In this document: piece after piece, positions 23,551 to 59,399 of the stretch
How the letters are laid out: every line of letters starts with the position of its first letter
Position numbering within the stretch: the stretch's first letter is position 1
Assembly: GCA_030432565.1 (NCBI GenBank)
Contig: JAUIGV010000010.1
Location: 62,001-126,000 of the forward strand
DNA: 64,000 nt
Direction of reading: 5' to 3'
DNA from: Verrucomicrobiia bacterium
GTDB lineage: Bacteria; Verrucomicrobiota; Verrucomicrobiia; Verrucomicrobiales; Akkermansiaceae
Notes under the pieces: generated by a model
The model's input: the letters and a program-made list of their open reading frames with translations, nothing else
Told to the model about the DNA's origin: nothing
Databases searched by the model: none
Program-made: the position numbers and the translations under genes

Positions 23551-24258
23551 ATGTTCGTGAAGGAAACTTTGCGGACAAGCGACGCTTCCTCTATGCTCCC
23601 GGGCGTGAAGGAAGCGTCTTTCTTTTTGTCCCCGATTCTGGAATCCAGGGACCACTGTGCTGATTTTGTGGAGCGTATCCCCGGAGTCGCGACATGCACC
23701 AACAAGGAAGAAACCTTGACCCGCCTTGCCCCACACCATACCGCGGCAGCTCGATCGTTGGGATTCAACAAAACCTACCACGCCGAGCAGGTTCACGGAT
23801 CTGGAATAGCGCTGATCACAAAGGAATCGCCTTTCATGTCTCCGGGAGTTGACGCCCTGATCACAGCCGGAAATGTCCTCCTCGGAATCCATGTTGCTGA
23901 TTGCGGAGCCCTCTACCTCCTCGATCGCAAAACCGGGGCAATTGGACTACTTCACTCCGGAAAAAAAGGAACCGAACTCAACATCACCGGAAAGGTGATC
24001 GAAGCGATGACCCGGAATTTCAACACCCGTCCCGGGGATCTGGTGGCCGTTCTTGCACCCTGTATCCGGCCTCCCCACTACGAAGTCGACTTTGCGGCAA
24101 GCATCCGGGAGCAAGCCCTCGCCTCCGGAATCCTGCCGGAGAACTACCACGATTGCGGGCTTTGCACAGCCTCTGATCTCGGACGATTCTATTCCTACCG
24201 CCGCGAGAAAGGAAACACCGGGCGACTTCTCGCCCTTCTTGGCCACCAACCATCATGA
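23551..24258 (+). CDS. YfiH/PgeF-family purine nucleoside phosphorylase-like (laccase-domain) protein
   Basis: A 235-residue protein of the DUF152/YfiH family. The zinc-binding triad is visible: His in AEQVHGSG, Cys in VADCGALYLLD and His in GLLHSGKKG. Family members act as purine nucleoside phosphorylases/adenosine deaminases or in editing peptidoglycan precursors (PgeF). The block that usually reads HAGWRG is HSGKKG here, losing the Trp, and GPCIGPxxYEV reads APCIRPPHYEV. It therefore looks like a diverged member. It starts 15 bases after the MarR gene and overlaps ispE by four bases. Confidence 0.82.
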   Translation: MFVKETLRTSDASSMLPGVKEASFFLSPILESRDHCADFVERIPGVATCTNKEETLTRLAPHHTAAARSLGFNKTYHAEQVHGSGIALITKESPFMSPGVDALITAGNVLLGIHVADCGALYLLDRKTGAIGLLHSGKKGTELNITGKVIEAMTRNFNTRPGDLVAVLAPCIRPPHYEVDFAASIREQALASGILPENYHDCGLCTASDLGRFYSYRREKGNTGRLLALLGHQPS

Positions 24259-25088
24259 GCTCCCTCACCGTCAGGCCTCCCGCCAAAATCAACCTCTCGC
24301 TGAAGATCACTCGCAAACGTGACGATGGCTTCCACGAATTGGAGACTCTTGTCCTCCCCTTGCCCGGCTTGACGGATGAACTTCACTTCGAAAATGCTGA
24401 GAAATTCAGCCTGCATTGTGAGGCCCCTGGCGTCCCCACCGATGAATCCAACCTCGTGTCCCGCGCCGTCCACCTTTTCGAAAAACATACCGGCAAAGAG
24501 GCGCCATTCCGGATCACCCTGACCAAACATATCCCACATGGTGCGGGACTCGGTGGCGGGAGCGCGGACGCCGCACACACCTTTCTGGCGCTCAATGAAC
24601 TGACCGGGGCATCGGTTCCGTTGGAATATCTTGCAGAATGGGCCGGCGAGCTTGGTTCCGACATCCCTCTTTTCATTTATGAATCACCCTGTTGGTGCCG
24701 GGGACGTGGGGAAGTGATCGAGCCAGTCAATCTGGAATGGAATCACCCCATTCTCCTATTCAAACCAAGCTTCTCGATCCCAACCCCCTGGGCCTACTCA
24801 CGCTGGAAGCACTCGCAGGAAATTCCCGATATTTCCTACAAACCCACCCGGGTTGGAGAAATCGAGCTCTTCAATGATCTCGAACGTCCCGTTTTTGAAA
24901 AACATCGCTTTCTGGCCGAACTCAAACAATTCCTGCTTGAGCAGCCCGAAACACAGACTGCAATGATGTCGGGGTCAGGCTCCACCGTTTTTGCGATTCT
25001 TCATGACAAAATGGACGCAGATTCGCTTGGCCGGCGCACCCTAAAGGAGCTTGACCCAACTCTCTGGAGTCACCTCGCGATCTTTTAA
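24255..25088 (+). CDS. ispE: 4-diphosphocytidyl-2-C-methyl-D-erythritol kinase (MEP pathway)
   Basis: A 277-residue GHMP kinase catalysing the ATP-dependent step of the MEP isoprenoid pathway. The family start [20 protein letters not shown] is followed by the ATP loop [14 protein letters not shown] and the C-terminal [12 protein letters not shown]. Length and motif order match IspE. It overlaps the YfiH-family gene (ATGA). Together with ispF near 59 kb it shows the organism uses the MEP pathway, which makes the HMG-CoA reductase near 41 kb notable. Confidence 0.96.
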
Positions 25089-40156: not shown

Positions 40157-41170
40157 ATGGCAAAATACCGACTCGATTACATCTGGCTGGACGGCTACAC
40201 GCCCGTTCCAAATCTTCGCACCAAGTGCTGCATCAAGGAATTTGATGAGTTTCCAACCCTCGAGCAGCTTCCTGAGTGGGGCTTCGACGGTTCCTCAACC
40301 CAACAGGCTGAAGGTGGTGACTCCGATTGTGTCCTGAAGCCCGTGGCAATCTACCCTGACGGAACCCGTGAAAATGGCGCTCTTGTCATGTGCGAAGTCA
40401 TGCTTCCAGACGGAAGTCCCCACCCATCGAACGCCCGCGCGACCATCCTCGACGACGAGAATGCATGGTTCGGCTTCGAACAGGAATACTTCTTCGAGAA
40501 GGACGGCAACATCCTTGGTTTCCCCAAAGGTGGTTATCCCGAGCCCCAAGGCGGATACTACTGTGGCGTTGGTTACAAGAATGTGGGTGACATCGGTCGC
40601 GCAATCGCAGACGAGCACCTCGACCTTTGTCTCTATGCAGGAATCAACCACGAGGGCATCAACGCCGAAGTGGCCATGGGCCAATGGGAGTTTCAGGTCT
40701 TCGGGAAAGGCTCGAAGCGCGCCGCCGACCAGATCTGGGTTGCCCGTTTCCTCCTCGAGCGCCTCGGCGAAGAGTATGGCGTCGACATCAACTACCACTG
40801 CAAGCCTCTCAAAGGCGACTGGAATGGCTCCGGAATGCACTGTAACTTCTCCACCAAGAAAATGCGTGAAGAAGGTGGCAAAGAATACTTTGACAAGCTT
40901 ATGGCCTCCTTCGAGAAGAACTGCATGGAGCACATCGCCGTCTACGGCCCGGACAATGATCAGCGCCTCACCGGCCTCCACGAGACCCAGTCGATCGACA
41001 AGTTCTCATGGGGAATCGCCGACCGCGGAGCTTCGATCCGGGTTCCGCACTCGTTCGCCAAGAACGACTGGAAAGGTTACCTCGAGGACCGTCGCCCGAA
41101 CTCACAGGGTGATCCTTACGCCATCGCCAGCCGCGTTCTGAAGACGATCGCCGAAGCTGACGAAGCTTAA
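40157..41170 (+). CDS. Glutamine synthetase type II (eukaryotic-like GSII)
   Basis: A 337-residue GSII, shorter than the bacterial GSI form (about 470). The beta-grasp start AKYRLDYIWLDGYTPVPNLR and WGFDGSSTQQAEG match the eukaryotic/rhizobial GlnII family. Catalytic regions GFEQEYFF, AGINHEGINAEVAMGQWEFQ, LKGDWNGSGMHCNFST and ASIRVPHS are intact. It converts glutamate and ammonia to glutamine with ATP. The Tyr adenylylation loop of GSI is absent, as expected, so control is by transcription, fitting the sigma-54 promoter. Upstream in-frame codons to 40061 lie around the predicted transcription start, so the ATG at 40157 is the start. Confidence 0.95.
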   Translation: MAKYRLDYIWLDGYTPVPNLRTKCCIKEFDEFPTLEQLPEWGFDGSSTQQAEGGDSDCVLKPVAIYPDGTRENGALVMCEVMLPDGSPHPSNARATILDDENAWFGFEQEYFFEKDGNILGFPKGGYPEPQGGYYCGVGYKNVGDIGRAIADEHLDLCLYAGINHEGINAEVAMGQWEFQVFGKGSKRAADQIWVARFLLERLGEEYGVDINYHCKPLKGDWNGSGMHCNFSTKKMREEGGKEYFDKLMASFEKNCMEHIAVYGPDNDQRLTGLHETQSIDKFSWGIADRGASIRVPHSFAKNDWKGYLEDRRPNSQGDPYAIASRVLKTIAEADEA

Positions 41171-41193
41171 TTCCTTTTCAGGGACAACTTTCA

Positions 41194-41228
41194 ACGGCCA
41201 CCGGATTTTTCCGGGGGCCGTTTTTTTT
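41194..41228 (+). terminator. Rho-independent terminator of GSII
   Basis: ACGGCC-A-CCGGA pairs with TCCGG-G-GGCCGT around a short T-rich loop (41194-41221), followed by eight Ts. It separates GSII from the HMG-CoA reductase operon. Confidence 0.92.
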
Positions 41229-41301
41229 GCGGCCACACCCAATCAGAGAAAATTGGTTCCGTGCTCGCGTCGTTAGCACAGAAAGTGCAGATTTTCAGGC
41301 A

Positions 41302-42588
41302 ATGTCGGGAAAGCACGATCTCACCACCAGGCACATCAGGAATGTTCTTCGCGGGCGCAGCGTCAACGAGATCGTCGAACAAATGAAGCCCGACTTGAAT
41401 TCCCTGCCAACCAAAATTCCCGTCAGCGCCAAAACAACCTTGGAGCGGGTCGAAAAAACCTGGCAGCACATCCCAAATCCTACTCTCAAAGATATCCTGC
41501 TGAACCCGGATGACGTATCAGATTATCAGGGAAATATCGAGAATCTAATCGGCACTCTCAGAGTTCCCCTGGGCATCGCGGGACCACTCCGGGTCAACGG
41601 GATATTTGCCAAAGGCGACTACCTTGTCCCCATGGCAACAACCGAAGCCGCGCTCGTTGCCAGCTACCACCGGGGCTCCTCGCTCATTTCCGAAGCCGGG
41701 GGATGCACCTCCATGGTTCTTATTGAGTCCGTCAATCGCGCTCCCTCCTTTTGCTTCCCCGATATGGCTGCGGCCGGCCAGTTCGTGATGTGGGCCATCG
41801 CTGAAATGGAGGTGTTCCAAAAAGTAGCCGCCACCACCACCAGCCACGGACAATTGGTCGATATCGGAACGACCATTGAAGGAAACCACGTCTATCTGAA
41901 TTTCGATTTCCACACCGCCGATGCCTCCGGCCAAAACATGGTCACCATTGCCACCCAGGCCATCTGCGACCACATCCTAAAACACTCTCCGGTCAAGCCG
42001 TCCCAAGCCTATGTAGAGGCCAACCTTTCCGGCGATAAAAAGGCAAGCGCCCGCTCATTTACCACCGCTCGTGGCAAAAAGGTAACCGCCGAGGTTCACC
42101 TGGCCGCAGACCTTGTCAAAAAACGCCTTCACTGCACTGTTGATGAAATGTGTGATTACTGGCGAACTTCCGCCATAGGAGGGGTGCTCAGCGGAACGAT
42201 GGGCATTCAAGGTCACTTCGCCAATGGGCTCGCCGCTCTCTACCTTGCCACCGGCCAGGATGTCGCCTGCGTTGCCGAGTCGGCAGTCGGCGTGACCCGA
42301 TTCGAAAAGAGCGGTAATGGTGACCTTTACGCTGCCGTCACTCTTCCCGGAATCATGGTTGGTACGGTCGGCGGCGGAACCGGCCTTCCGACCCAAAATG
42401 CCTGCCTTCAAATTATGAATCTGGCCGGACCGGATAAATCCCGCGCCCTCGCCGAAGTGACGGCCGGATTGATCCTTGCAGGAGAGCTCTCGATCATTGG
42501 AGCTCTCGCTGCCGGACACTTCTCCCGAGCCCACCGGAACCTCGCTAGAGGCAAAAAACCAATCATCGACAAGAATGATGTTAGGTAA
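41302..42588 (+). CDS. Hydroxymethylglutaryl-CoA reductase
   Basis: A 428-residue HMG-CoA reductase, which makes mevalonate from HMG-CoA with NAD(P)H. Catalytic residues are intact: Glu80 in ENLIGTLRVPLGIAGPL, Lys246/247 in SGDKKAS, Asp320 in ATGQDVA, and His406/His411 in AGHFSRAHRN. MATTEAALVAS and GTVGGGTGLPTQ are also typical. The length and DKK motif resemble the catalytic domain of the eukaryotic/archaeal class more than the mvaA-type class II enzyme. The frame opens at a TTG (41227) in the preceding terminator; the ATG at 41302 follows an AGG. It leads a seven-gene cluster, 48 bases before the UbiA-family gene. No other mevalonate-pathway gene is in the window. Confidence 0.94.
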   Translation: MSGKHDLTTRHIRNVLRGRSVNEIVEQMKPDLNSLPTKIPVSAKTTLERVEKTWQHIPNPTLKDILLNPDDVSDYQGNIENLIGTLRVPLGIAGPLRVNGIFAKGDYLVPMATTEAALVASYHRGSSLISEAGGCTSMVLIESVNRAPSFCFPDMAAAGQFVMWAIAEMEVFQKVAATTTSHGQLVDIGTTIEGNHVYLNFDFHTADASGQNMVTIATQAICDHILKHSPVKPSQAYVEANLSGDKKASARSFTTARGKKVTAEVHLAADLVKKRLHCTVDEMCDYWRTSAIGGVLSGTMGIQGHFANGLAALYLATGQDVACVAESAVGVTRFEKSGNGDLYAAVTLPGIMVGTVGGGTGLPTQNACLQIMNLAGPDKSRALAEVTAGLILAGELSIIGALAAGHFSRAHRNLARGKKPIIDKNDVR

Positions 42589-42636
42589 TCTTTATTCGAT
42601 TTCCTCAATTTCGGAACCTGCTCTTTATTGATCCCC

Positions 42637-43503
42637 ATGCGCTGGTGGACCTACCAAAAAGAACGATTTCCGATTTTCGCCAATGGGCTTTTGATTGCGG
42701 CATTTAGTTCCTGCGCCGTCTTTTACTCATCATTTCTCTCCGGGGGAAGCCCCCCCAACATTGGCATGTTCGCAGTCGCGTTTGTCACCTGCTTCATCTT
42801 TTTTCTGCAACTTCGGATTGCCGATGAATTTAAAGATGCCGGGGAAGACGCGCAATTTCGACCCTACCGCCCCGTTCCACGTGGCCTCATTAAACTGCGT
42901 GAACTTGGAATCATTTTTGTCGTCGGATCCCTGATTCAACTCGCTCTGGCATTATGGTTTTCACCCAAACTTCTCTGGATCCTACTTTTCGGATGGATCT
43001 ATCTCTCCCTGATGAGCGCCGAGTTTTTTTGCCGGGATTGGCTCAAGGCGCGCCCCATCACCTACCTTTGGACCCACATGTTGATCATGCCTATCGTCGA
43101 TCTTTACGCGACAGCATGTTATTGGTTCCCCGATCTCGACGCCCCGCCGCAAGGACTCATTTGGTTTCTTGCAGCAAGCTTCACCAACGGTCTCGTCATC
43201 GAGCTCGGTCGCAAGATCCGCTTTCCTGACGAGGAAGAAGAAGGTGTCCCCACTTACAGCAAACTCTGGGGAACACATCGAGCCGCCTGGATTTGGGTGG
43301 GATGCCTCGCGACGACTTTTCTCTTTGCCTTCATCGCCTCCTGCCAAATAGGAACACACTTCGAAACCACCCTTGTTCTTGGGGCGGCATTCGGACTCTC
43401 CGCCTTACTCTGGCAACCCGGAAAGCGAATCGAACTGCTCTCCGCCCTCTGGACGCTCACCCTCTACCTTAGCCTCGGAATTCTTCCCCTTTTCTTATCA
43501 TGA
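42637..43503 (+). CDS. UbiA-family membrane prenyltransferase
   Basis: A 288-residue protein with about eight transmembrane helices. Two acidic motifs mark the UbiA family: RIADEFKDAGED with RPYRPVPRGLI after it (first Asp-rich loop), and ELGRKIRFPDEEEEG with VPTYSKLWG (second loop). They bind Mg2+ and the prenyl diphosphate. UbiA enzymes attach isoprenoid chains to aromatic or glycerol-phosphate acceptors, or in some members act on chlorophyll or heme. The acceptor here is unknown. The ATG at 42637 is chosen over an earlier TTG. Its stop overlaps the dikinase start (ATGA). Confidence 0.88.
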   Translation: MRWWTYQKERFPIFANGLLIAAFSSCAVFYSSFLSGGSPPNIGMFAVAFVTCFIFFLQLRIADEFKDAGEDAQFRPYRPVPRGLIKLRELGIIFVVGSLIQLALALWFSPKLLWILLFGWIYLSLMSAEFFCRDWLKARPITYLWTHMLIMPIVDLYATACYWFPDLDAPPQGLIWFLAASFTNGLVIELGRKIRFPDEEEEGVPTYSKLWGTHRAAWIWVGCLATTFLFAFIASCQIGTHFETTLVLGAAFGLSALLWQPGKRIELLSALWTLTLYLSLGILPLFLS

Positions 43504-45830
43504 TCATTGAACCACTTGATTGCAGAACCGAAGATCCCGTTGGTGGAAAGGCCCGCTCATTGGCTTCCCTCACCCAGGCTGGTTTCGAAATACCGGACTG
43601 GTTTATCGTCACTCCGGATGACTATCAACTTCCACCACTCAACGGACTCCATGCCGTCCGCTCTTCCGCCATGAGCGAAGACGGTTCGGAGAATTCCTTT
43701 GCCGGACAGTTCGACAGCTTCCTTAATATCTCTCCGGACGATGTGGAAGTTCATATCGAAAAAGTCCGCCAATCCGGAACATCGTCACATCTCGAAACCT
43801 ACGCCAGGACCCGCGAGGTTGAGATGAAAGGTCGGGTCTCGGTGATCGTTCAAAAAATGGTCGACGCAAAATTTGCGGGGGTGGCTTTCGGTGCAGATCC
43901 TATCACCGGCGAGCGAGCGATCACCATCGTCTCTGCAATCGAAGGTCTTGGCGAAGCACTCGTGTCCGGTGAAATCGACTCTGAAAACTGGCGGATATCC
44001 CCCACTGGAGAAATTGAGGGTGCAAGCAAACTTCTAACAAAAGAGCAAATCGTCGAAGTCAGTCATCTTTGCCGCCGCTGCAACGCTCACTTTGGATGCC
44101 CGCAAGACATCGAATGGGCCATCGATCAGAAGGGTCGGCTTTGGCTACTCCAAAGTCGCCCCATCACGACACTCGCAAAGCTCCCCGACCCTTCCGATGC
44201 ACTCACAGTCTGGGATAACAGCAATATCGCGGAATCCTACGGCGGCGTGACAAGCCCGCTCACCTTTTCATTTGCCTCCCGTATCTACGAACACGTCTAT
44301 CGCGAATTTTGCAAACTCCTAAAGGTTCCCAGGTGGAAGATTGAAGGACACAATCAAGTTTTCCCCCAAATGCTCGGACATATCAATGGGCGGGTTTACT
44401 ATAATCTTGTCAGTTGGTATCAAGTCCTCGCGCTATTGCCCGGCTTCACGATAAACCGGACTTTTATGGAGAAGATGATGGGAGTGAAACAGCCTCTCCC
44501 CGATGAAATCATCGACCAAATCATCGCTAACAACTCAACATCCAGATGGCGGGATGGAATTGCCCTGTTCAAAACAACCCTGGGGCTTGTTTACAGTTAT
44601 TTCAAACTCCCCCGACAAATCAAGGGATTTCAGCACCGTCTCAATGATGCTCTGCGAGTCAAAGTGCCACTTTCTAGATTCAGCCGGAGCGAGCTGATCT
44701 CGCACTACCGCGAACTCGAAGACAAATTACTTCATCGCTGGGATGCGCCCCTCGTCAATGACTTCTTCGCCATGATTTTCTACGGCCTGTTGGCAAAGAA
44801 TACCGATGACCCCAATGCATTTTTGCGCGACACCGGTGACATCATCTCGGCCCGCCCTCCACGACTCATCAAGGAAATGGCCGCCCTCGTCCGCCCGCAC
44901 CCTCAACTCACCCAAACCCTCCTGTCTGACACTCCGGTCGCAAGAAAACTCTCGGAAGTACGAGAGCACCCCGAGTTAAACAAAAAACTACAATCCTACC
45001 TTGAGGAATTCGGGGATCGTTGCCTCGAGGAGCTCAAACTGGAAAGTCCCACCGTACTGGATGACCCCGGATCGCTTCTCCAATCGATTGGAACTTTTGC
45101 GGCTCACCCGCCAAAGGAAACGGTCAAGGAGCCTTCTCCAAAGCCCAGGGGTTTTTCACAAAGATTCCTCGCTTCCAAAGCCCGCCTTCTCATCAGAAAT
45201 CGCGAAAACCTTCGCTTCGAGCGAACCCGGGTTTTCGGACGTGTCCGCAATATCGTCCGTGAACTTGGCAATCGCCTCGTTGCCGACCGACAACTGGAAT
45301 CGTCCGATGATGTCTTTTATCTCACTCTCGATGAGATACTCGATAGCGGAGTTACACGAGACCTCACATCACTGGCCTCACTGCGCAAAAAGGAATTTTA
45401 CAACCACCATCAATCCTCCTCTCCACCCGATCGGTTCAATACACGAGGCCCCCTTTATCGACATCGGGAATTTCTTCCCGAAGAATCCCACGAAGATACG
45501 AAAGGAGACCTAAAGGGAATTGGAGCCTGTGCCGGAATTGTCCGTGGCCCTGTCAGAGTAGTGACCAACCCCAGGGAGGCCACCCTGCAGCCCGGGGAAA
45601 TTCTTGTCGCAACCCAAACCGATCCAGGTTGGGTCGTCCTCTTTCCCGCCGCAGCCGGACTGCTGGTTGAACGCGGAAGCCTCCTCTCCCACTCCGCGAT
45701 TGTTGCCAGGGAACTAGACCTTCCCTGTGTCGTCTCCCTCACCAACATTACCACCACGCTCAAAACCGGAGACCTCGTTGAAATGAATGGTAAAACAGGT
45801 GAGGTCACCCTCCTTAACGATGAAAACTGA
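43500..45830 (+). CDS. Rifampicin-phosphotransferase/PEP-synthase-like dikinase
   Basis: A 776-residue protein. The N-terminal ATP-grasp region (about 1-240) contains GGKARSLASLTQAGFEIPDWF, AVRSSAMSEDG and SRPITTLAKLPDP, all typical of PEP synthase and Rph. The middle (about 240-640) begins SYGGVTSPLTFSFA, as in Rph-type enzymes, and serves as acceptor-binding part. The C-terminal swivelling domain has LLSHSAIVARELDLPCV with the phospho-His at 731. Members transfer phosphate from ATP through this His to a hydroxyl group. Rph inactivates rifampicin, but the operon context suggests a biosynthetic alcohol substrate. The start overlaps the UbiA stop; the 3' end overlaps the next gene by 11 bases. 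Confidence 0.88.
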   Translation: MIIEPLDCRTEDPVGGKARSLASLTQAGFEIPDWFIVTPDDYQLPPLNGLHAVRSSAMSEDGSENSFAGQFDSFLNISPDDVEVHIEKVRQSGTSSHLETYARTREVEMKGRVSVIVQKMVDAKFAGVAFGADPITGERAITIVSAIEGLGEALVSGEIDSENWRISPTGEIEGASKLLTKEQIVEVSHLCRRCNAHFGCPQDIEWAIDQKGRLWLLQSRPITTLAKLPDPSDALTVWDNSNIAESYGGVTSPLTFSFASRIYEHVYREFCKLLKVPRWKIEGHNQVFPQMLGHINGRVYYNLVSWYQVLALLPGFTINRTFMEKMMGVKQPLPDEIIDQIIANNSTSRWRDGIALFKTTLGLVYSYFKLPRQIKGFQHRLNDALRVKVPLSRFSRSELISHYRELEDKLLHRWDAPLVNDFFAMIFYGLLAKNTDDPNAFLRDTGDIISARPPRLIKEMAALVRPHPQLTQTLLSDTPVARKLSEVREHPELNKKLQSYLEEFGDRCLEELKLESPTVLDDPGSLLQSIGTFAAHPPKETVKEPSPKPRGFSQRFLASKARLLIRNRENLRFERTRVFGRVRNIVRELGNRLVADRQLESSDDVFYLTLDEILDSGVTRDLTSLASLRKKEFYNHHQSSSPPDRFNTRGPLYRHREFLPEESHEDTKGDLKGIGACAGIVRGPVRVVTNPREATLQPGEILVATQTDPGWVVLFPAAAGLLVERGSLLSHSAIVARELDLPCVVSLTNITTTLKTGDLVEMNGKTGEVTLLNDEN

Positions 45831-46815
45831 AATCCAAAATCGAGCCGATTTCTCCGCTGTCCGCTATGGTCAATGTTGGGAAGACGCCGACATCCTCATC
45901 GAAGGCCTCAGGGTCCATGAAGGCCGGCGTTGCCTGTCAATTGGCTCGGCCGGAGACAACTCTTTTGCTCTCCTCGCAGCCGGGGCCAGGCATGTCACTG
46001 CGGTCGAAATGAACCCGGCACAGATTGCCTGTATCGAACTTCGCCGAAAAGCCTACCTGGAACTGGACTACCCCGACTTTTTGAAAACAGTCACCGCATC
46101 GACTGGAAAATTTGAACGCTATTTCAGGATGTTCCGGACCATGATTCTGCCTCTGGCACACTCTGGAAAACGTATCGACCAACTCCTCGAATCAAAGCCC
46201 CGGAAACAGCGGGAACAATTTTATGACTCGGTCTGGAACAACCGTCGGTGGCGACTTCTCTTCCACGCTTTTTTCTCAAGATTCGCGATGGGCCGGCTTG
46301 GTCGTGACCCTGCATTTTTTGACTACGTTGAGGGATCAGTCGCTGAGCGCATCCTCGAGCGCACCCACTATGCTCTCACCGAGCTAGACCCATCTCAAAA
46401 CCCATATCTACATTGGATCCTGAAGGGTTATTTTGGTGAGACCCTGCCTCTGGCACTTCAGGAGAAATCCTATTTGAAAATCCGCGCCGCACTTCAGGAG
46501 AATCGCTTCGACGTAATTCACGCCCCCCTTGAAAAGGCCCTGAACAGTCAGCTCTTCGACGCATTCAACCTGAGCGACATTTTCGAATACATGAGCGAAG
46601 AGTCCACTCAGAAGTTGCTGGATCAAATCGCCGACCACAGTACCCCCGGCGCCCGGCTCGCCTATTGGAATATGCTGGCTCCACGGCAATCCAACTCCTC
46701 CCGAATTCGCTCCCTTCCCGAACTATCCAAGCAACTCTTTCACCAAGACCGGGCTTTCTTCTACTCCCGTTTCATCGTTGAGGAGGTCATCGATCCGCCC
46801 TCTCCGAATTCCTAA
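45820..46815 (+). CDS. DUF3419 family, BtaA-like 3-amino-3-carboxypropyltransferase
   Basis: A 331-residue protein of the DUF3419 family, whose known member BtaA moves the 3-amino-3-carboxypropyl group of SAM to diacylglycerol in betaine lipid synthesis. The SAM site reads LSIGSAGDNSFALLAAG, then AVEMNPAQIACIELR, as in BtaA. The FSAVRYGQCWEDADILIEG start is the family signature. A BtaB-type N-methyltransferase does not follow, so the product may be a homoserine-type lipid without trimethylation, or another acceptor is used. The ATG at 45820 lies inside the dikinase gene's last codons, giving an 11-base overlap. Confidence 0.87.
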   Translation: MKTEIQNRADFSAVRYGQCWEDADILIEGLRVHEGRRCLSIGSAGDNSFALLAAGARHVTAVEMNPAQIACIELRRKAYLELDYPDFLKTVTASTGKFERYFRMFRTMILPLAHSGKRIDQLLESKPRKQREQFYDSVWNNRRWRLLFHAFFSRFAMGRLGRDPAFFDYVEGSVAERILERTHYALTELDPSQNPYLHWILKGYFGETLPLALQEKSYLKIRAALQENRFDVIHAPLEKALNSQLFDAFNLSDIFEYMSEESTQKLLDQIADHSTPGARLAYWNMLAPRQSNSSRIRSLPELSKQLFHQDRAFFYSRFIVEEVIDPPSPNS

Positions 46816-46823
46816 TACTGGCA

Positions 46824-48032
46824 ATGCCCGGAATCTCCATCGTTATCGTCTCCCTCGTGACACTCATGGTAGTTGTCCACAGGTTTTCGCTCGCCGCCGA
46901 GACAAGCCGGAAGGCCATTCACGTTGGAATGGGTGTCATATGCCTCGCTTTCCCGTGGCTCTTTTCCAACTCCCGGAGTGTCGATCTTCTCGCAGTTCTC
47001 GCTGTTACCACTCTGCTCGTCATTCGCTGGCGAAAACCGGCCCTCGGGGACGTTCTCCACCGAATCGAACGACTATCGATTGGAGAACTCCTTTTCCCCA
47101 TTGGTGTTGCCATCGTCTTCCGCCTGTCCGACGGCGATCCGCGAACCTACCTCCCGTCCATTGCCATCCTCACCTTTGCCGACACGGCCGGAGCAATCGT
47201 GGGTCGGCGTTTTGGAAAGACCCTCTACCGAACGAACGCAGGTCAAAAATCAGTGGAAGGCTCTCTGGCTGTTTTTTTGGTAAGCTTTTTGATTGTCATC
47301 GTCTCTGGAATCAGCAGCGACCCTCTGACTAATTTTCTGATCGCCGTTGTCGTTTCTCTTGTCGCAACGATGGCCGAAGGAATCCTGGGCGCTGGTACTG
47401 ACAACCTGGTTCTGCCAATCGCAGTCTTCGCGCTGATTTTCATCCTTCAAAATCATATTTGGCCCGACCTTTTGGCCAGAATCGCCCTGATTGCCGGAAC
47501 AGGGCTCTTCCTTTTCTGTGTCCGAAAATTAACCAGTCTAAACGGAGGCGGACTTTTGAGTGCGACCGTCTTTGCCTACCTTTCCTTTGCACTGGGAGGT
47601 CCTCGTTTTTTGATCGCTCCTTGCCTTCTCTTTATTATTCACCTCGCTACCACTTACCGGTTTCAGGAACTTTCACAAATGGAGCACAGCGCCGATAGCA
47701 TTTCGGCGGTTGCCATTCCTGGCCTTATATGGGTCACCCTCGGCGTGACCACAAATATCCCGCACCAGCAATGCTACCATGGCTTCTGCCTTACAATGAT
47801 GGCCCAGGCTTGCTTCCTACATTCCGCCACGAGAAAATTCCTCGGAAAGCAATCCGGAGTTCTCGTCGGCGCAATCAAGGTGCTCGCAGTCGGAGCCGCC
47901 TGTGATTTATGGTGGTTCGCTGGGGTAGCTGCCATCGTCTTGATTCCCGTCATTCCGATCTCCGGGAATCTGACCCGCCCATCTCAAGCCATCCTCGCCT
48001 TTTTATTCTCACTCATCGCTCTCATCCTGTGA
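46824..48032 (+). CDS. Dolichol/phytol-kinase-like integral membrane protein with extra C-terminal membrane domain
   Basis: A 402-residue protein with about twelve transmembrane helices. The N-terminal half carries the polyprenol/phytol kinase (SEC59/VTE5/DGK1) signature: ETSRKAIHVGMG, then FADTAGAIVGRRFGKT and GQKSVEGSLAVF. These are CTP- or ATP-dependent lipid-alcohol kinases related to CDP-diglyceride synthase. The C-terminal half (about 215-402), with SLNGGGLLSATVFAYLSF, looks like a DUF92-type domain, the family of phytyl-phosphate kinase VTE6; that assignment is tentative. If right, one protein would turn a prenol into its diphosphate. It lies eight bases after the DUF3419 gene and its stop overlaps the next start (GTGA). 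Confidence 0.78.
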   Translation: MPGISIVIVSLVTLMVVVHRFSLAAETSRKAIHVGMGVICLAFPWLFSNSRSVDLLAVLAVTTLLVIRWRKPALGDVLHRIERLSIGELLFPIGVAIVFRLSDGDPRTYLPSIAILTFADTAGAIVGRRFGKTLYRTNAGQKSVEGSLAVFLVSFLIVIVSGISSDPLTNFLIAVVVSLVATMAEGILGAGTDNLVLPIAVFALIFILQNHIWPDLLARIALIAGTGLFLFCVRKLTSLNGGGLLSATVFAYLSFALGGPRFLIAPCLLFIIHLATTYRFQELSQMEHSADSISAVAIPGLIWVTLGVTTNIPHQQCYHGFCLTMMAQACFLHSATRKFLGKQSGVLVGAIKVLAVGAACDLWWFAGVAAIVLIPVIPISGNLTRPSQAILAFLFSLIALIL

Positions 48033-48850
48033 AAACCGCCAACTTGATAACTTCAGAACAACTCGGACTTTGGTGGACCTCCACCCCGTCCTATCAAAAT
48101 CACAAAGTTGGGTGTTTCAGCACGCCTCAAACAATGGAGGCTTTGCGTGACGCCGGCTCGGAACTCCGCCGACGCGGCTGCACCATTGCCATTGGACCAA
48201 TGGAGGGGAATACCTGGCGCACGCACCGGGCGGTAATCGAATCAGACGGGTCGCGCCCCTTTCCTTTGGAGCCGGTTACTCCGCTAGAGCTAGTCGATCT
48301 TCTCGAACAGGAAGGCTATGAGACCATTGCGAGATACTCTTCTTCGAAGGTCGATCTCACCAGCCAATCTCCGGATCTTTCACGTTTGCGAGAACGATTG
48401 CATCAAGTGAAGATACGCCCGCTGAATCTCCTGCAACTCGAGGACGAGCTCCGGGCCATCTATCGGCTCTCAGCCCGGGCTTTTCGTGACAACTTCCTCT
48501 ACACTGATATTTCCGAGGCTGAATTCATCACCCAATATGAAGCATTCAGATCCCATCTCAACTCCAACTCCGCCTTCCTTGCTGAACGTTCCGGAAGGCT
48601 CGTCGGATTTGTTTTTGGTTACCCGGATCAGGATCGTTTCGTCGTGAAGACTGTGGCAGTTCTTCCGATGCGAGCTTATGCGGGGCTGGGCACTGTCTTG
48701 GTCGACAAGATTCAATCAAGCGCACGAAAGGAAGGCTTCATCTCGGCTATTCACGCCCTTCAGCGAGAAGACAATCAGTCGTTGCGCATCAGCAAACGAT
48801 TTCAAGCGACCGTCTTTCGCCGCTATGCCCTCTTTGCTAAAACACTATGA
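48029..48850 (+). CDS. GNAT-family N-acetyltransferase-like protein
   Basis: A 273-residue protein. The C-terminal half (about 130-265) is a GNAT fold: strand FLAERSGRLVGFVFGYPD, then VKTVAVLPMRAYAGLGTVLVDK, where the RxxGxG-type acetyl-CoA loop reads RAYAGLG. The N-terminal half (KVGCFSTPQTMEALRDAG, then GPMEGNTWRTHR) also resembles a GNAT-like lobe seen in larger acyltransferases. The start is the GTG overlapping the preceding stop; the longer frame upstream is antisense-like filler. Its stop overlaps the next ATG. It could acylate the amino group added by the DUF3419 enzyme, but this is inference. Confidence 0.8.
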   Translation: MKTANLITSEQLGLWWTSTPSYQNHKVGCFSTPQTMEALRDAGSELRRRGCTIAIGPMEGNTWRTHRAVIESDGSRPFPLEPVTPLELVDLLEQEGYETIARYSSSKVDLTSQSPDLSRLRERLHQVKIRPLNLLQLEDELRAIYRLSARAFRDNFLYTDISEAEFITQYEAFRSHLNSNSAFLAERSGRLVGFVFGYPDQDRFVVKTVAVLPMRAYAGLGTVLVDKIQSSARKEGFISAIHALQREDNQSLRISKRFQATVFRRYALFAKTL

Positions 48851-50217
48851 ATCTTGTTGAAAAACTCTCCGCCCAGCCACCGGAGCAAACCGCCATCATC
48901 GATCGCAAGGGCTCGATTACCTTCGGTGAGCTCAACAAACGGGTTCAGGGTGGAGCCTCCTTCCTGGGCCGGCAGAACTTGAAACCCGGCGATTACGTCC
49001 TCGTTCTCCACCCCATCACGATTGAGTTATATGAGATTCTCCTAAGTTGTTTTCATGCCGGCATCGTTGTGATTTTGGTTGATCCGGCAAAAGGATCCGA
49101 CTTCCTGAAACAGTGTCTCAACTGGCTACCTCCCAAAGCACTGATCGGGAGCCCAAAGGCACAACTCTTACGAATGCGGTACCGACAGCTCAAGCAAGGA
49201 ATCTCCACCGGCCCTTGGTTGCCATTCACCACAAAATGGGCTCCCAACAGCACTCCCTGCATCCCGGCCGAAGTTCCACCCGATCATCCCGCCTTGATCA
49301 CCTTCACCAGCGGGAGCACGGGATTCCCAAAGGCAGTTGTTCGCTCTCACGCCTTCCTCCTCGCCCAGGATGAAACACTGTCCAGGAGTATCAACCTCGA
49401 GCCCGGAGAAGTCGATCTAGTCACCCTTCCGGTATTTCTCCTCTCAAACCTATCGCACGGAGTTACCAGCATTATCGCGGACACCGACCTCACCAGACCG
49501 GGTTTTCCAGAAGTTCCAAAGATCCTGGATCAGGTGAAGCGTCACGATATCACTCGATGCACCGCATCTCCGGCCTTCTTTGAAAAAATGCCGGATCGTT
49601 TTTTCAGTCCCCTGAAAAAAATCTACACAGGAGGAGCTCCGGTCTTTCCTGAACTGCTCAAGCGATTCCCCTCAAAGATCCATTCTGTTTACGGCTCCTC
49701 TGAAGCTGAGCCCATCGCACACTTCAACGCTGCCAATTTCACTCGCTCGGTCGCACAAATGATCGCAGATGGCAATGGACTTCCTGCTGGAAAGCCCGTT
49801 TCCGGGATTGATCTTCGAATTGTTGACGACGAAATCCTCGTCACCGGCAACCACGTCCTGAAAGGTTACTTCCAAGGACGTGGTGACCAAGAAACCAAAG
49901 TCAAAATTGATGGCCAGATATGGCATCGCACCGGAGATGCCGGACGCTTGGACGGGGATGGCAACCTCTGGCTGCTTGGCCGGCACTCGCAAAAGTGGAA
50001 GCAGTTTTACCCTCTTCAAATCGAAGCGGCAGTCCACATTCTCTTCCCGGCGATTCGATGTGCCTTTCTCGATGGGACACTCTATCTTGAAGAGTTTCAG
50101 GAAATCAATCTTCCGTGGGTTACTATCGATCAGGTCGAAGTGATGGAAAAAATCCCCATGGATTCAAGGCACAACGCAAAGGTTGATTACCGAGCGCTCC
50201 GGAAGAACCGGGATTGA
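48847..50217 (+). CDS. AMP-forming acyl-CoA synthetase/ligase, OleC-like
   Basis: A 456-residue ANL-family enzyme. The P-loop TFTSGSTGFPKAVVRSH, the adenine motif VYGSSEAEP, HRTGDAGRLDGDGNLWLLGR and a shortened C-terminal domain ending with a Lys-containing segment are present. The block LVTLPVFLLSNLSHGVTS with DTDLTRPGF matches the OleC/beta-lactone-synthetase branch, which activates beta-hydroxy acids. No OleA or OleD lies in the window. As the last of seven coupled genes it probably activates the acid part of the product. HMG or a hydroxy fatty acid are candidates only by reasoning. Confidence 0.87.
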   Translation: MNLVEKLSAQPPEQTAIIDRKGSITFGELNKRVQGGASFLGRQNLKPGDYVLVLHPITIELYEILLSCFHAGIVVILVDPAKGSDFLKQCLNWLPPKALIGSPKAQLLRMRYRQLKQGISTGPWLPFTTKWAPNSTPCIPAEVPPDHPALITFTSGSTGFPKAVVRSHAFLLAQDETLSRSINLEPGEVDLVTLPVFLLSNLSHGVTSIIADTDLTRPGFPEVPKILDQVKRHDITRCTASPAFFEKMPDRFFSPLKKIYTGGAPVFPELLKRFPSKIHSVYGSSEAEPIAHFNAANFTRSVAQMIADGNGLPAGKPVSGIDLRIVDDEILVTGNHVLKGYFQGRGDQETKVKIDGQIWHRTGDAGRLDGDGNLWLLGRHSQKWKQFYPLQIEAAVHILFPAIRCAFLDGTLYLEEFQEINLPWVTIDQVEVMEKIPMDSRHNAKVDYRALRKNRD

Positions 50218-50218
50218 A

Positions 50219-51382
50219 TCATTTCAGCAGATCCCAGTCCTCTTTGGTTTTTTCACTTTTTTGAAACTCCATTAAAATTTTCCAGTCATTGCCCTCTTTG
50301 ACCAGGAGCGCTTCCATTTCGATGTAGGCAACTGTCTCCTGACCTCCCTTTGGCTGACTTGCGTAACGAAACATCCCTGTCTCGTGAGCTGTGGCATTGT
50401 CGCCCCAGCGTTGTCCAAAACGGAAGTCGACACTCGCCTTCATTTTGCCCGACTTTGTGTCGTCGAATTCTTTTTTCCACTTCTTCAGGGCAGAAGCCAG
50501 CGGATAACTCCTTTGCTTCTTGCCCGAAACCAAGACTCCGGCGGGATGGCAGGTGGCAGCATATCCTGCAAAATCGCCTTCACCAACTGCCCTGGAAACT
50601 TCCGCCCAATAGGAATCAAGCTCCTTCAACCGATCGGCTTCCAGGTCCAGTTCTTTGACCTTGAGACCACGCCAAACAACCTTCCCCCGCTTTGCCTTAT
50701 GAACCTGGAGGCCAAAGTATCCGGATTGAAAACTGCCATCGCCCTTCCAATGAGCTGCCGGAACTCCATTGAGCCACGTCTTCACCGTCTCTCCCCTCGC
50801 CATCACCGTCACCCGGTTCCAGCCCTCTTTATTTAGGGAGCCTCGTACTTCCGCGTGCTCTTCCAACCAAAGAGGATACCAGTAGCCGCCACAGCTTTGA
50901 CCATAAACCCCACCGGACCAGCCACGGTCATTTTTAACCCCCTCCATCTCGACCTGAGGCCCGAAAACGGCTCTCGTCTTTTCGCTCTTCGCACGAAACA
51001 TGACCCCCGAGTTTAGATCTTCCTCCCATCGCATCTCGCAAGTAAAAATGAAGTCGCTGTAGTCGGATCTCTTAGTACAGAGATAGGTGCTGGCCTCTCC
51101 TGCAACACAAGTCCCGATCACCATTCCGTTCCGATACTCGAAGATCGACTTCCCGCCTTTGAGCTCCCAATTGGAAAGATCCTTGCCATTCAACAAAGAG
51201 ACAAAGCCATTCTCAAGCGCAGGCTCCTTGTCGGTATTGAGCAACATTTCGCCGGGCGCCGGAGCGTTCTCCTGCTTGCGGTATTTTGTGAACCATTTCT
51301 TCTGGGAAGGATCCAATTTACCGGCGAAACCCTGCGCACAGGCTGCAACCAGAACGACAACAACAAATTCTCTCAAGTTCAC
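50219..51382 (-). CDS. Secreted DUF1080 (LamG-like) protein with NTF2-like C-terminal domain
   Basis: A 387-residue exported protein starting at a GTG and carrying a signal peptide (FVVVVLVAACAQGFAG). The DUF1080 domain (about 55-245) shows FVSLLNGKDLSNWELKG, NSGVMFRAKS and GVYGQSCGGYWYP, typical of the 3-keto-disaccharide hydrolase/LamG-like fold abundant in Planctomycetes and Verrucomicrobiota. The C-terminal part (about 255-385) is an NTF2/SnoaL-like domain: AEVSRAVGEGDFAGYAATCH. It is probably a periplasmic sugar-binding or sugar-modifying protein. It converges with the lipid operon, ending one base after it. Confidence 0.83.
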   Translation of the reverse strand: MNLREFVVVVLVAACAQGFAGKLDPSQKKWFTKYRKQENAPAPGEMLLNTDKEPALENGFVSLLNGKDLSNWELKGGKSIFEYRNGMVIGTCVAGEASTYLCTKRSDYSDFIFTCEMRWEEDLNSGVMFRAKSEKTRAVFGPQVEMEGVKNDRGWSGGVYGQSCGGYWYPLWLEEHAEVRGSLNKEGWNRVTVMARGETVKTWLNGVPAAHWKGDGSFQSGYFGLQVHKAKRGKVVWRGLKVKELDLEADRLKELDSYWAEVSRAVGEGDFAGYAATCHPAGVLVSGKKQRSYPLASALKKWKKEFDDTKSGKMKASVDFRFGQRWGDNATAHETGMFRYASQPKGGQETVAYIEMEALLVKEGNDWKILMEFQKSEKTKEDWDLLK

Positions 51383-58164: not shown

Positions 58165-58914
58165 GTGACCGAACTCGAAACAGCCGTCCACGCCGCCAAG
58201 GAAGCGGGCAAACTCCTCCGTGCCAATTTCCACGGACCCAAGCATGTTGATGAAGCCCTCCATCACGATCTTAAACTCGCTCTCGACAAGGAATCCCAGG
58301 ATCTAATCACCGGGATCATTCTCGACCAGCACCCCGGACACGCCATCTACGGTGAGGAAGGATTGGCCGGAGATCAATCTTCCGCTCATCAATGGATCGT
58401 CGACCCCATCGATGGCACCGTCAACTTTTTCTACGGAATTCCGCATTTCTGCATTTCCATCGCCAAACGAGTCGACGGTGAGCTCGTTTTGGGGGTCATT
58501 TACGATCCCATGGTCAACGAGCTTTGGACGATCGAAAAAGGGGGGCAACCTCTGCTCAATGGCAATCCGGTCACCGTGAGCAACCGCGAAAAACTGGAAG
58601 AATCCATTCTCTTCGTTGGCTGCGGCAAGGATGAAGAAGCACTCGCCACCGGCCTTACCCGCTTCAAGAAAGGGTCTCTCAAAGCACGTAAAATGCGCAT
58701 GATGGGATCGGCCGCTCTAGGAATGGCCTACATCGCCTGCGGGCGGCTTGATGCTTACATCGAGTCACGCATCTCGCTTTGGGACATTGCAGCCGGCCAG
58801 TTGATGATTGAAGCCACAGGTGGGAGCGTCAAGCTCGTCCCTCACGAGAATAATCCTGATGTTTACTCGATCGTTGCAAGCAACGGAAAAATCCCTATCG
58901 AACAAATCCTATGA
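58165..58914 (+). CDS. Inositol monophosphatase-family phosphatase
   Basis: A 249-residue Mg2+-dependent phosphatase starting with GTG at 58165. The metal-binding blocks are GEEGLAGD, WIVDPIDGTVNFFYGIP and LWDIAAGQLMIEATGG, in the order of IMPase/SuhB/CysQ enzymes. The IPHFCISIA segment after the second block is IMPase-like. Substrates could be inositol phosphate, another sugar phosphate or PAP. It overlaps ispF by four bases. Confidence 0.93.
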   Translation: MTELETAVHAAKEAGKLLRANFHGPKHVDEALHHDLKLALDKESQDLITGIILDQHPGHAIYGEEGLAGDQSSAHQWIVDPIDGTVNFFYGIPHFCISIAKRVDGELVLGVIYDPMVNELWTIEKGGQPLLNGNPVTVSNREKLEESILFVGCGKDEEALATGLTRFKKGSLKARKMRMMGSAALGMAYIACGRLDAYIESRISLWDIAAGQLMIEATGGSVKLVPHENNPDVYSIVASNGKIPIEQIL

Positions 58915-59399
58915 TTCGCTCAGGCATTGGATACGACGTCCACCAATTTGCAGAAGGCCGCCCGTTGATTTTGGGTGGCGTTGAAATCCCACACACCCAT
59001 GGGCTTGACGGCCACTCGGATGCCGATGTCCTCAGTCATGCCATTGCCGATGCCATCCTTGGTGCACTCGGCCTCCCCGATATTGGTTACTATTTCCCGC
59101 CGGGCGACGATTCCTGCAAAGACATCTGCTCGCTGCGCATCCTCGAAAAGTGCGCATCCTTGTGCGAGGAATACGATTACAAATTGATGAATGTCGATTC
59201 TTCCCTGGTTGCCGAGGCTCCCAGGGTCCTGCCCCATGCTCCCGCGATGAAAGAAAACATCGCCAGGTCGCTGGGACTGACGCCTGCTGAAATTGGGATT
59301 AAAGCGACAACCAACGAGACGATGGGATTCGTCGGGCGCCGCGAAGGGATGGCGGCATTTGCCACCGCCTTGGTTGTCAAAAAAGACTTCTTGAAATAA
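58911..59399 (+). CDS. ispF: 2-C-methyl-D-erythritol 2,4-cyclodiphosphate synthase (MEP pathway)
   Basis: A 162-residue enzyme forming the cyclic diphosphate of the MEP pathway. The Zn site GYDVHQFAEG (Asp and His) and GHSDADVLSHAIADAILGA are intact, as are PDIGYYFPPGD and IKATTNETMGFVGR. Its start overlaps the phosphatase stop. Often ispF is next to ispD; here it is not. With ispE near 24 kb it shows a MEP-based isoprenoid supply. Confidence 0.96.
   Translation: MIRSGIGYDVHQFAEGRPLILGGVEIPHTHGLDGHSDADVLSHAIADAILGALGLPDIGYYFPPGDDSCKDICSLRILEKCASLCEEYDYKLMNVDSSLVAEAPRVLPHAPAMKENIARSLGLTPAEIGIKATTNETMGFVGRREGMAAFATALVVKKDFLK

Follow-up and report, generated by a model that had tools for sequence, protein, structure and literature searches.

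A probable FcrA-type acyl-CoA reductase, homologous to HMG-CoA reductase, heads a conserved seven-gene operon in Verrucomicrobiota

The window analysed here is a stretch of 64,000 nucleotides from the genome of a Verrucomicrobiia bacterium of the family Akkermansiaceae (order Verrucomicrobiales; contig JAUIGV010000010.1, assembly GCA_030432565.1). It contains a tight operon on the + strand which begins with a homologue of HMG-CoA reductase (HMGR) and runs up to position 50217, with overlaps or gaps between genes of at most 39 bases, the start of the GNAT gene being uncertain. A type II glutamine synthetase gene lies 131 bases upstream of the reductase. The seven genes, referred to below as the cassette, are:

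41302-42588, + strand: FcrA-like (class I HMGR-family) reductase, 428 aa
42628-43503, + strand: UbiA-superfamily prenyltransferase-like membrane protein (Pfam UbiA, 5.7e-14)
43500-45830, + strand: PEP-synthase/rifampin-phosphotransferase-like enzyme (ATP-grasp domain, unknown middle domain, C-terminal phosphohistidine domain with the motif LSHSAIV.RE)
45787-46815, + strand: DUF3419 protein of the SAM-dependent BtaA betaine-lipid synthase family (Pfam DUF3419, 9e-50; alternative start 45820)
46824-48032, + strand: polytopic membrane protein, polyprenol-kinase-like by motifs and a weak fold match
47993-48850, + strand: GNAT acyltransferase-like protein (Pfam Acetyltransf_1, 8.7e-08; start uncertain, with 47909, 48029 or 48044 as alternatives)
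48847-50217, + strand: AMP-binding acyl-CoA ligase, PRK09274/OleC-like (Pfam AMP-binding, 8.2e-45; NCBIfam match and motifs)

The reductase gene reads through 428 codons without an internal stop and its product contains a full Pfam HMG-CoA_red domain (E=1.1e-109). The product scores 318 bits with the NCBIfam class I model TIGR00533 against 58 bits with the class II model TIGR00532, both below the respective cut-offs, which rules out a class II (mvaA-type) identity. The TIGR00533 equivalog cut-off of 441.8 bits failed its control as a discriminator of enzyme types, as three partial HMGRs with canonical substrate-binding residues (the S/K/L type defined below) also score only 309–324 bits. Among solved structures, that of the Methanothermococcus enzyme (6hr7) is closest (1.4e-81), and the catalytic residues are present as E115, K246, D320, and H411. 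The sequence-only reading had described a complete, catalytically intact enzyme at the head of the operon, closer to the eukaryotic/archaeal class than to mvaA, and both descriptions hold. In VIA structural comparison, a model of the enzyme (pLDDT 79) matches class I HMGRs with Z scores of 24–26 at 32–40% identity, with rmsd values of 12–14 Å reflecting domains that are poorly placed relative to each other. Model confidence is weak around residues 239–256 and 293–303, hence pocket geometry is not argued from the model.

The enzyme is the only HMGR in the source genome (5,927,505 bases, 5.93 Mb; 97.3% complete). Isoprenoid synthesis there is of the MEP type, as proposed from the window: ispE (24255-25085) and ispF (58911-59396) score above their TIGR cut-offs, and Dxr and IspH were found above cut-off elsewhere in the genome. 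There are two IspH matches above cut-off, at C70:133699-134727 and C41:55386-56210. HMG-CoA synthase was found neither in the whole genome nor in 57 relatives, and the whole-genome search also returned no mevalonate-PP decarboxylase and no mevalonate kinase match above cut-off. The sub-cut-off kinase matches include the ispE of the window and one on contig C35; the best of them lies in an ORF that reads by eye as a galactokinase. The absence of HMG-CoA synthase, mevalonate kinase, and decarboxylase first noted within the window thus extends to the genome at these thresholds, with no mevalonate pathway found, and a housekeeping role for the reductase in such a pathway is rejected. Lone HmgR genes beside a complete MEP pathway have been noted in Streptomyces, where a 2026 review poses them as an open question (PMC13001223).

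The substrate pocket differs from that of canonical HMGRs. Numbering follows the human enzyme, with the human, Arabidopsis, and Methanothermococcus enzymes as references. The window reductase has E239 in place of Ser684, T289 in place of Lys735, and F407 in place of Leu862. This Lys salt-bridges the HMG carboxylate in the human and plant enzymes, where Ser684 provides a polar contact (PMC9500038). The HMGRs listed by the genome searches of the phylum were compared together with that of a Planctomycetota MAG locus (L002); the count leaves out two divergent enzymes (L053, L061) as well as the remnants found in L003, L004, and L067. It covers 49 rows with Glu684, namely the window enzyme, that of L002, and those of the cassette-type loci, and 63 others. 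All 63 others carry Ser684, Lys735, and Leu862 together (S/K/L type). In the Glu684 rows, position 735 is always uncharged (T, M, V, L, or I) and position 862 is always Phe (49/49 each). The three positions therefore separate the two enzyme types of the phylum cleanly; as the rows were grouped by residue 684, the independent agreements are those at 735 and 862. Catalytic Lys691, Asp767, and His866 are retained in 49/49 of these rows and Glu559 in 47, the remaining two being gapped there; Arg590, Asp690, Lys692, and Asn755 are also kept.

Beside position 735 the cassette proteins have one residue fewer. A check for an alignment shift hiding the Lys showed that neither candidate position has a fixed basic residue: R occupies the adjoining position in 32 rows, with Q (10), K (3), E (2), C (1), and H (1) in the others. 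Going by the alignment, the adjoining Arg (32/49; Lys in 3/49) could partly substitute for Lys735.

The presence of HMG-CoA synthase follows the same division. It was found in 56/57 genomes of the phylum with the S/K/L type alone and in all six genomes carrying both reductase types, but in only 1/24 genomes with the cassette type alone and in neither of the two with divergent types. The 24 cassette-only genomes span several families, with 19 carriers from the order and five from outside it, including one Planctomycetota genome (G734). The single exception with a synthase is G699, which is 89% complete. Comparison of 1/24 with 56/57 gives a Fisher p of 6e-18, uncorrected for relatedness, which overstates certainty as the genomes are related.

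These data bear on the suggestion of the sequence-only reading that mevalonate feeds a special product or serves as a building block itself. Under such a scheme, a genuine HMGR would reduce HMG-CoA obtained from elsewhere, for example from leucine breakdown, and the mevalonate would be built into a special product. The class I fold with its catalytic residues intact would fit, as would the retained Arg590, Asp690, Lys692, and Asn755 and the presence of biosynthetic enzymes in the operon. However, the salt-bridging Lys735 is replaced and an acidic Glu stands in for Ser684 in every one of the 49 rows, 23 of the 24 cassette-only genomes lack HMG-CoA synthase, and the source genome has no mevalonate kinase or decarboxylase above cut-off. 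Together with the match to a different enzyme family described below, this makes use of mevalonate improbable, and the suggestion was not upheld.

The family in question is FcrA, a class I HMGR homologue of haloarchaea and many bacteria (Grossi et al. 2025, PMC11948995). FcrA uses NADPH to turn long-chain acyl-CoA into fatty alcohol. HMG-CoA is not reduced, and simvastatin does not inhibit the enzyme. This chemistry was shown in a bacterial homologue other than that of the window, and the assayed FcrA acts in vitro on chains of C14 or more (PMC11948995). Its published marks are replacement of Ser684 by Glu, loss of the salt-bridging Lys, and a bulky residue in place of Leu862. The Lys is printed there as Lys795, but human residue 795 is Cys in the sequence used here, hence it is read as Lys735. 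According to the same paper, bacteria with the HMGR-like form alone lack the rest of the mevalonate pathway. The changes at 684 and 735 and the anticorrelation with HMG-CoA synthase had been found before the comparison with this paper was made; position 862 was checked afterwards, and it holds.

The window enzyme shares with FcrA the class I fold, the catalytic Glu559, Lys691, Asp767, and His866, Glu at 684 (E239), the loss of Lys735 (T289), a bulky residue at 862, and a genome without a mevalonate pathway. It differs in having Phe at 862, as do all 49 Glu684 rows, where the archaeal FcrA of PMC11948995 have Trp. It also lacks the N-terminal Lad/ACP carrier domain, with ~116 residues preceding the catalytic Glu in most rows, although this domain occurs in only certain FcrA (PMC11948995) and is not a defining feature. 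Furthermore, the gene stands in a seven-gene operon and not beside a wax ester synthase; the published work proposes that some FcrA serve ether-lipid rather than wax-ester synthesis. Canonical class I HMGRs (human 1dq8, Arabidopsis 8ecg, Methanothermococcus 6hr7) have the same fold and catalytic residues, but in the window enzyme the HMG-carboxylate contacts S684 and K735, as well as L862, are replaced and the genome is without HMG-CoA synthase. A further contrast is provided by a Streptomyces plasmid cluster of the mevalonate pathway (L208), in which mvk, mvaD, phosphomevalonate kinase, fni, and HMG-CoA synthase accompany an HMGR of the same family that, unlike the window enzyme, keeps S/K/L.

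In an HMGR phylogeny, all S/K/L HMGRs fall on one side of a branch with SH-aLRT 95 and all other enzymes, including that of the window, fall on the opposite side. The alignments and tree were built from sequences other than experimentally characterised FcrA, and FcrA membership rests on the published residues together with this tree. The cassette enzymes do not form an exclusive clade, as stand-alone Vibrionaceae enzymes and the enzyme of L053 fall among them. The former come from Vibrio/Photobacterium plasmid records (L205, L206, L207), are 54–55% identical to the window enzyme, and have Asp684, Met735, and Phe862. In the annotated record L205 the gene is labelled hydroxymethylglutaryl-CoA reductase and no other cassette gene is listed nearby.

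Several other homologues show further variation at these positions. L053:3810-5105, from G036 of the same order, encodes a cassette-derived enzyme without the cassette, with Glu690, Arg692, and Leu862; from its sequence, its function has perhaps changed once more. L166:1495-3042, from G808 of the Planctomycetota draw, is an FcrA-like enzyme with an N-terminal extension and Trp862, near the archaeal FcrA pattern, and lies on the non-S/K/L side of the tree. An Alteromonas macleodii plasmid (L209:1-6029) carries an HMGR-annotated gene with Ala684, Tyr735, and Trp862, near genes for an AMP-binding protein, an SDR, and an iron-containing redox enzyme. Lastly, L061:1398-12138, from G180 of the same order, contains a divergent HMGR homologue with Arg at position 735 and Ile at 590. 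Its neighbours are two ketoacyl synthases and flavin amine-oxidase-like, halogenase-like, and RPE65-like genes, and the homologue is perhaps another recruited thioester reductase.

Among 31 homologues of the UbiA-like protein, at least 95% keep the motif RIADEFKD...D, and partner motifs in general are conserved. The nearest solved relatives of the PEP-synthase-like protein are 5fbs (5.7e-56) and 5hv1, whose records are named phosphoenolpyruvate synthase and which are rifampin phosphotransferases; that family is also among the NCBIfam matches of the window protein. Betaine-lipid synthases transfer an aminocarboxypropyl group from SAM. DUF3419 is the betaine-lipid synthase family (PMC10685587). 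A PDB sequence search with the DUF3419 and UbiA proteins gave no useful match.

The membrane protein at 46824-48032 is tentatively placed in the CdsA/dolichol-kinase/phytol-kinase superfamily, probably as a CTP-dependent kinase acting on a lipid alcohol. A 28-member alignment shows invariant RK..H..MG, D120, K142, EG, and DN...P, motifs which resemble those of CTP-dependent lipid kinases. CTP_transf_1 was detected in 2/28 family members. Foldseek ranked CdsA top for the structure model, but with nothing below E 0.001, and VIA also placed CdsA first, with Z 8.0 and an rmsd of 4.9–7.2 over 167–173 residues. This Z score may reflect only the common arrangement of helical proteins.

The replaced HMG pocket, the anticorrelation with HMG-CoA synthase, and the match to the FcrA pattern mean that the orphan HMGR is very probably an enzyme of a known kind. 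Judged on sequence, we are confident in reading it as an FcrA-type fatty acyl-CoA reductase that would feed an alcohol to the lipid pathway of the operon. It would keep the HMGR fold and the four-electron NADPH chemistry, reducing a thioester to a primary alcohol with release of CoA, with HMG recognition lost. The AMP-binding ligase would supply the acyl-CoA, which the reductase would turn into a fatty or other long-chain alcohol. Phosphorylation of the alcohol would fall to the kinase-like membrane protein, the PEP-synthase-like enzyme, or both, and the UbiA, DUF3419 (BtaA-like) transferase, and GNAT proteins would then build a membrane lipid or lipid conjugate. Which substrate the source organism uses, how the steps follow one another, and what they yield are inferred; the product is probably a fatty-alcohol-derived lipid.

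A narrower form of the FcrA reading differs on the substrate: the enzyme may reduce a special acyl-CoA (branched, isoprenoid, or hydroxylated) confined to its own pathway. The linked genes for UbiA and a phytol/dolichol-kinase-like protein give a hint of isoprenoid substrates, the cassette proteins fall in a clade of their own within the FcrA-like group (with the Vibrionaceae enzymes and L053 inside it), and residue 862 is Phe rather than Trp. Set against these points is the use of C14 and longer acyl chains by the assayed FcrA (PMC11948995), leaving a special substrate possible but rather doubtful. Published modelling found pockets too small for C14 in 12/59 putative FcrA (PMC11948995), so a shorter substrate is possible for the window enzyme. 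The ebo operon (PMC5133447) is another uncharacterised but widespread bacterial operon with a UbiA-superfamily enzyme; the other five gene families described for it differ from those here and none is HMGR-like.

Within the order, HMGR occurs in 43/386 genomes and 16/50 genera. The DNA around the gene was covered for all 43, as the window, 40 further stretches, and two short contigs. A UbiA gene directly follows HMGR in 37 of the 43, and all seven cassette genes were seen in 26. Of the six without UbiA, one (G004) has a deletion remnant, two (G036, G180) have divergent enzymes and no cassette, and in three (G024, G039, G359) the contig ends nearby. In other Verrucomicrobiota families the cassette genes recur in altered orders. 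L109 and L110 have HMGR, DUF3419, membrane protein, GNAT, ligase, UbiA, and PEP-synthase-like genes in that order, L111 has the same with inserted genes, and L116 has ligase, UbiA, PEP-synthase-like, HMGR, DUF3419, and membrane protein genes. The Planctomycetota MAG locus L002 has all seven genes ordered as in the window, and a second Planctomycetota genome (L175) has ligase, HMGR, and UbiA within a short locus.

Loss is evident closer to the source organism. Among 27 genomes of the genus, five have a full-length copy, three have remnants, and 19 show no match. In L004, a match to window positions 41100-41501 (88.6%) is followed directly by a match to 49782-50591 (91.1%). The missing block corresponds to window positions 41502-49781 (~8.3 kb) and takes in the bulk of HMGR, the genes between, and the bulk of the ligase, leaving an end of HMGR and of the ligase as remnants. 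L003 retains HMGR residues 1–156 and pieces of the ligase. The cassette is thus dispensable and its genes are lost together as a unit. Such losses would also be expected of a non-functional pathway retained by chance, but the window copy is intact with its catalytic residues, and the cassette is conserved over many genera along with its partner motifs, making a mere remnant highly improbable.

The puzzle of the lone HMGR is largely solved by the published FcrA family; what is new is the cassette of seven genes conserved around the enzyme. The main text of PMC11948995 names neither Verrucomicrobia, Planctomycetes, nor UbiA, and no description of the operon was found in open-licence full-text literature on HMGR clusters, DUF3419/BtaA, UbiA partners, and Verrucomicrobia. 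Tentatively, the cassette may represent a lipid pathway new to bacteria that has spread between Verrucomicrobiota and Planctomycetota. In it, a long-chain alcohol from an HMGR-derived reductase would be phosphorylated, after which a UbiA-type enzyme and a BtaA-like aminocarboxypropyl transferase would incorporate it into a membrane lipid of ether type or bearing an amino acid. More broadly, FcrA-type enzymes annotated as HMGR would account for a lone HMG-CoA reductase in bacteria that use the MEP pathway, and this label can mislead surveys of isoprenoid pathways. A second outcome is a conserved operon with a product that is not described in the literature searched.
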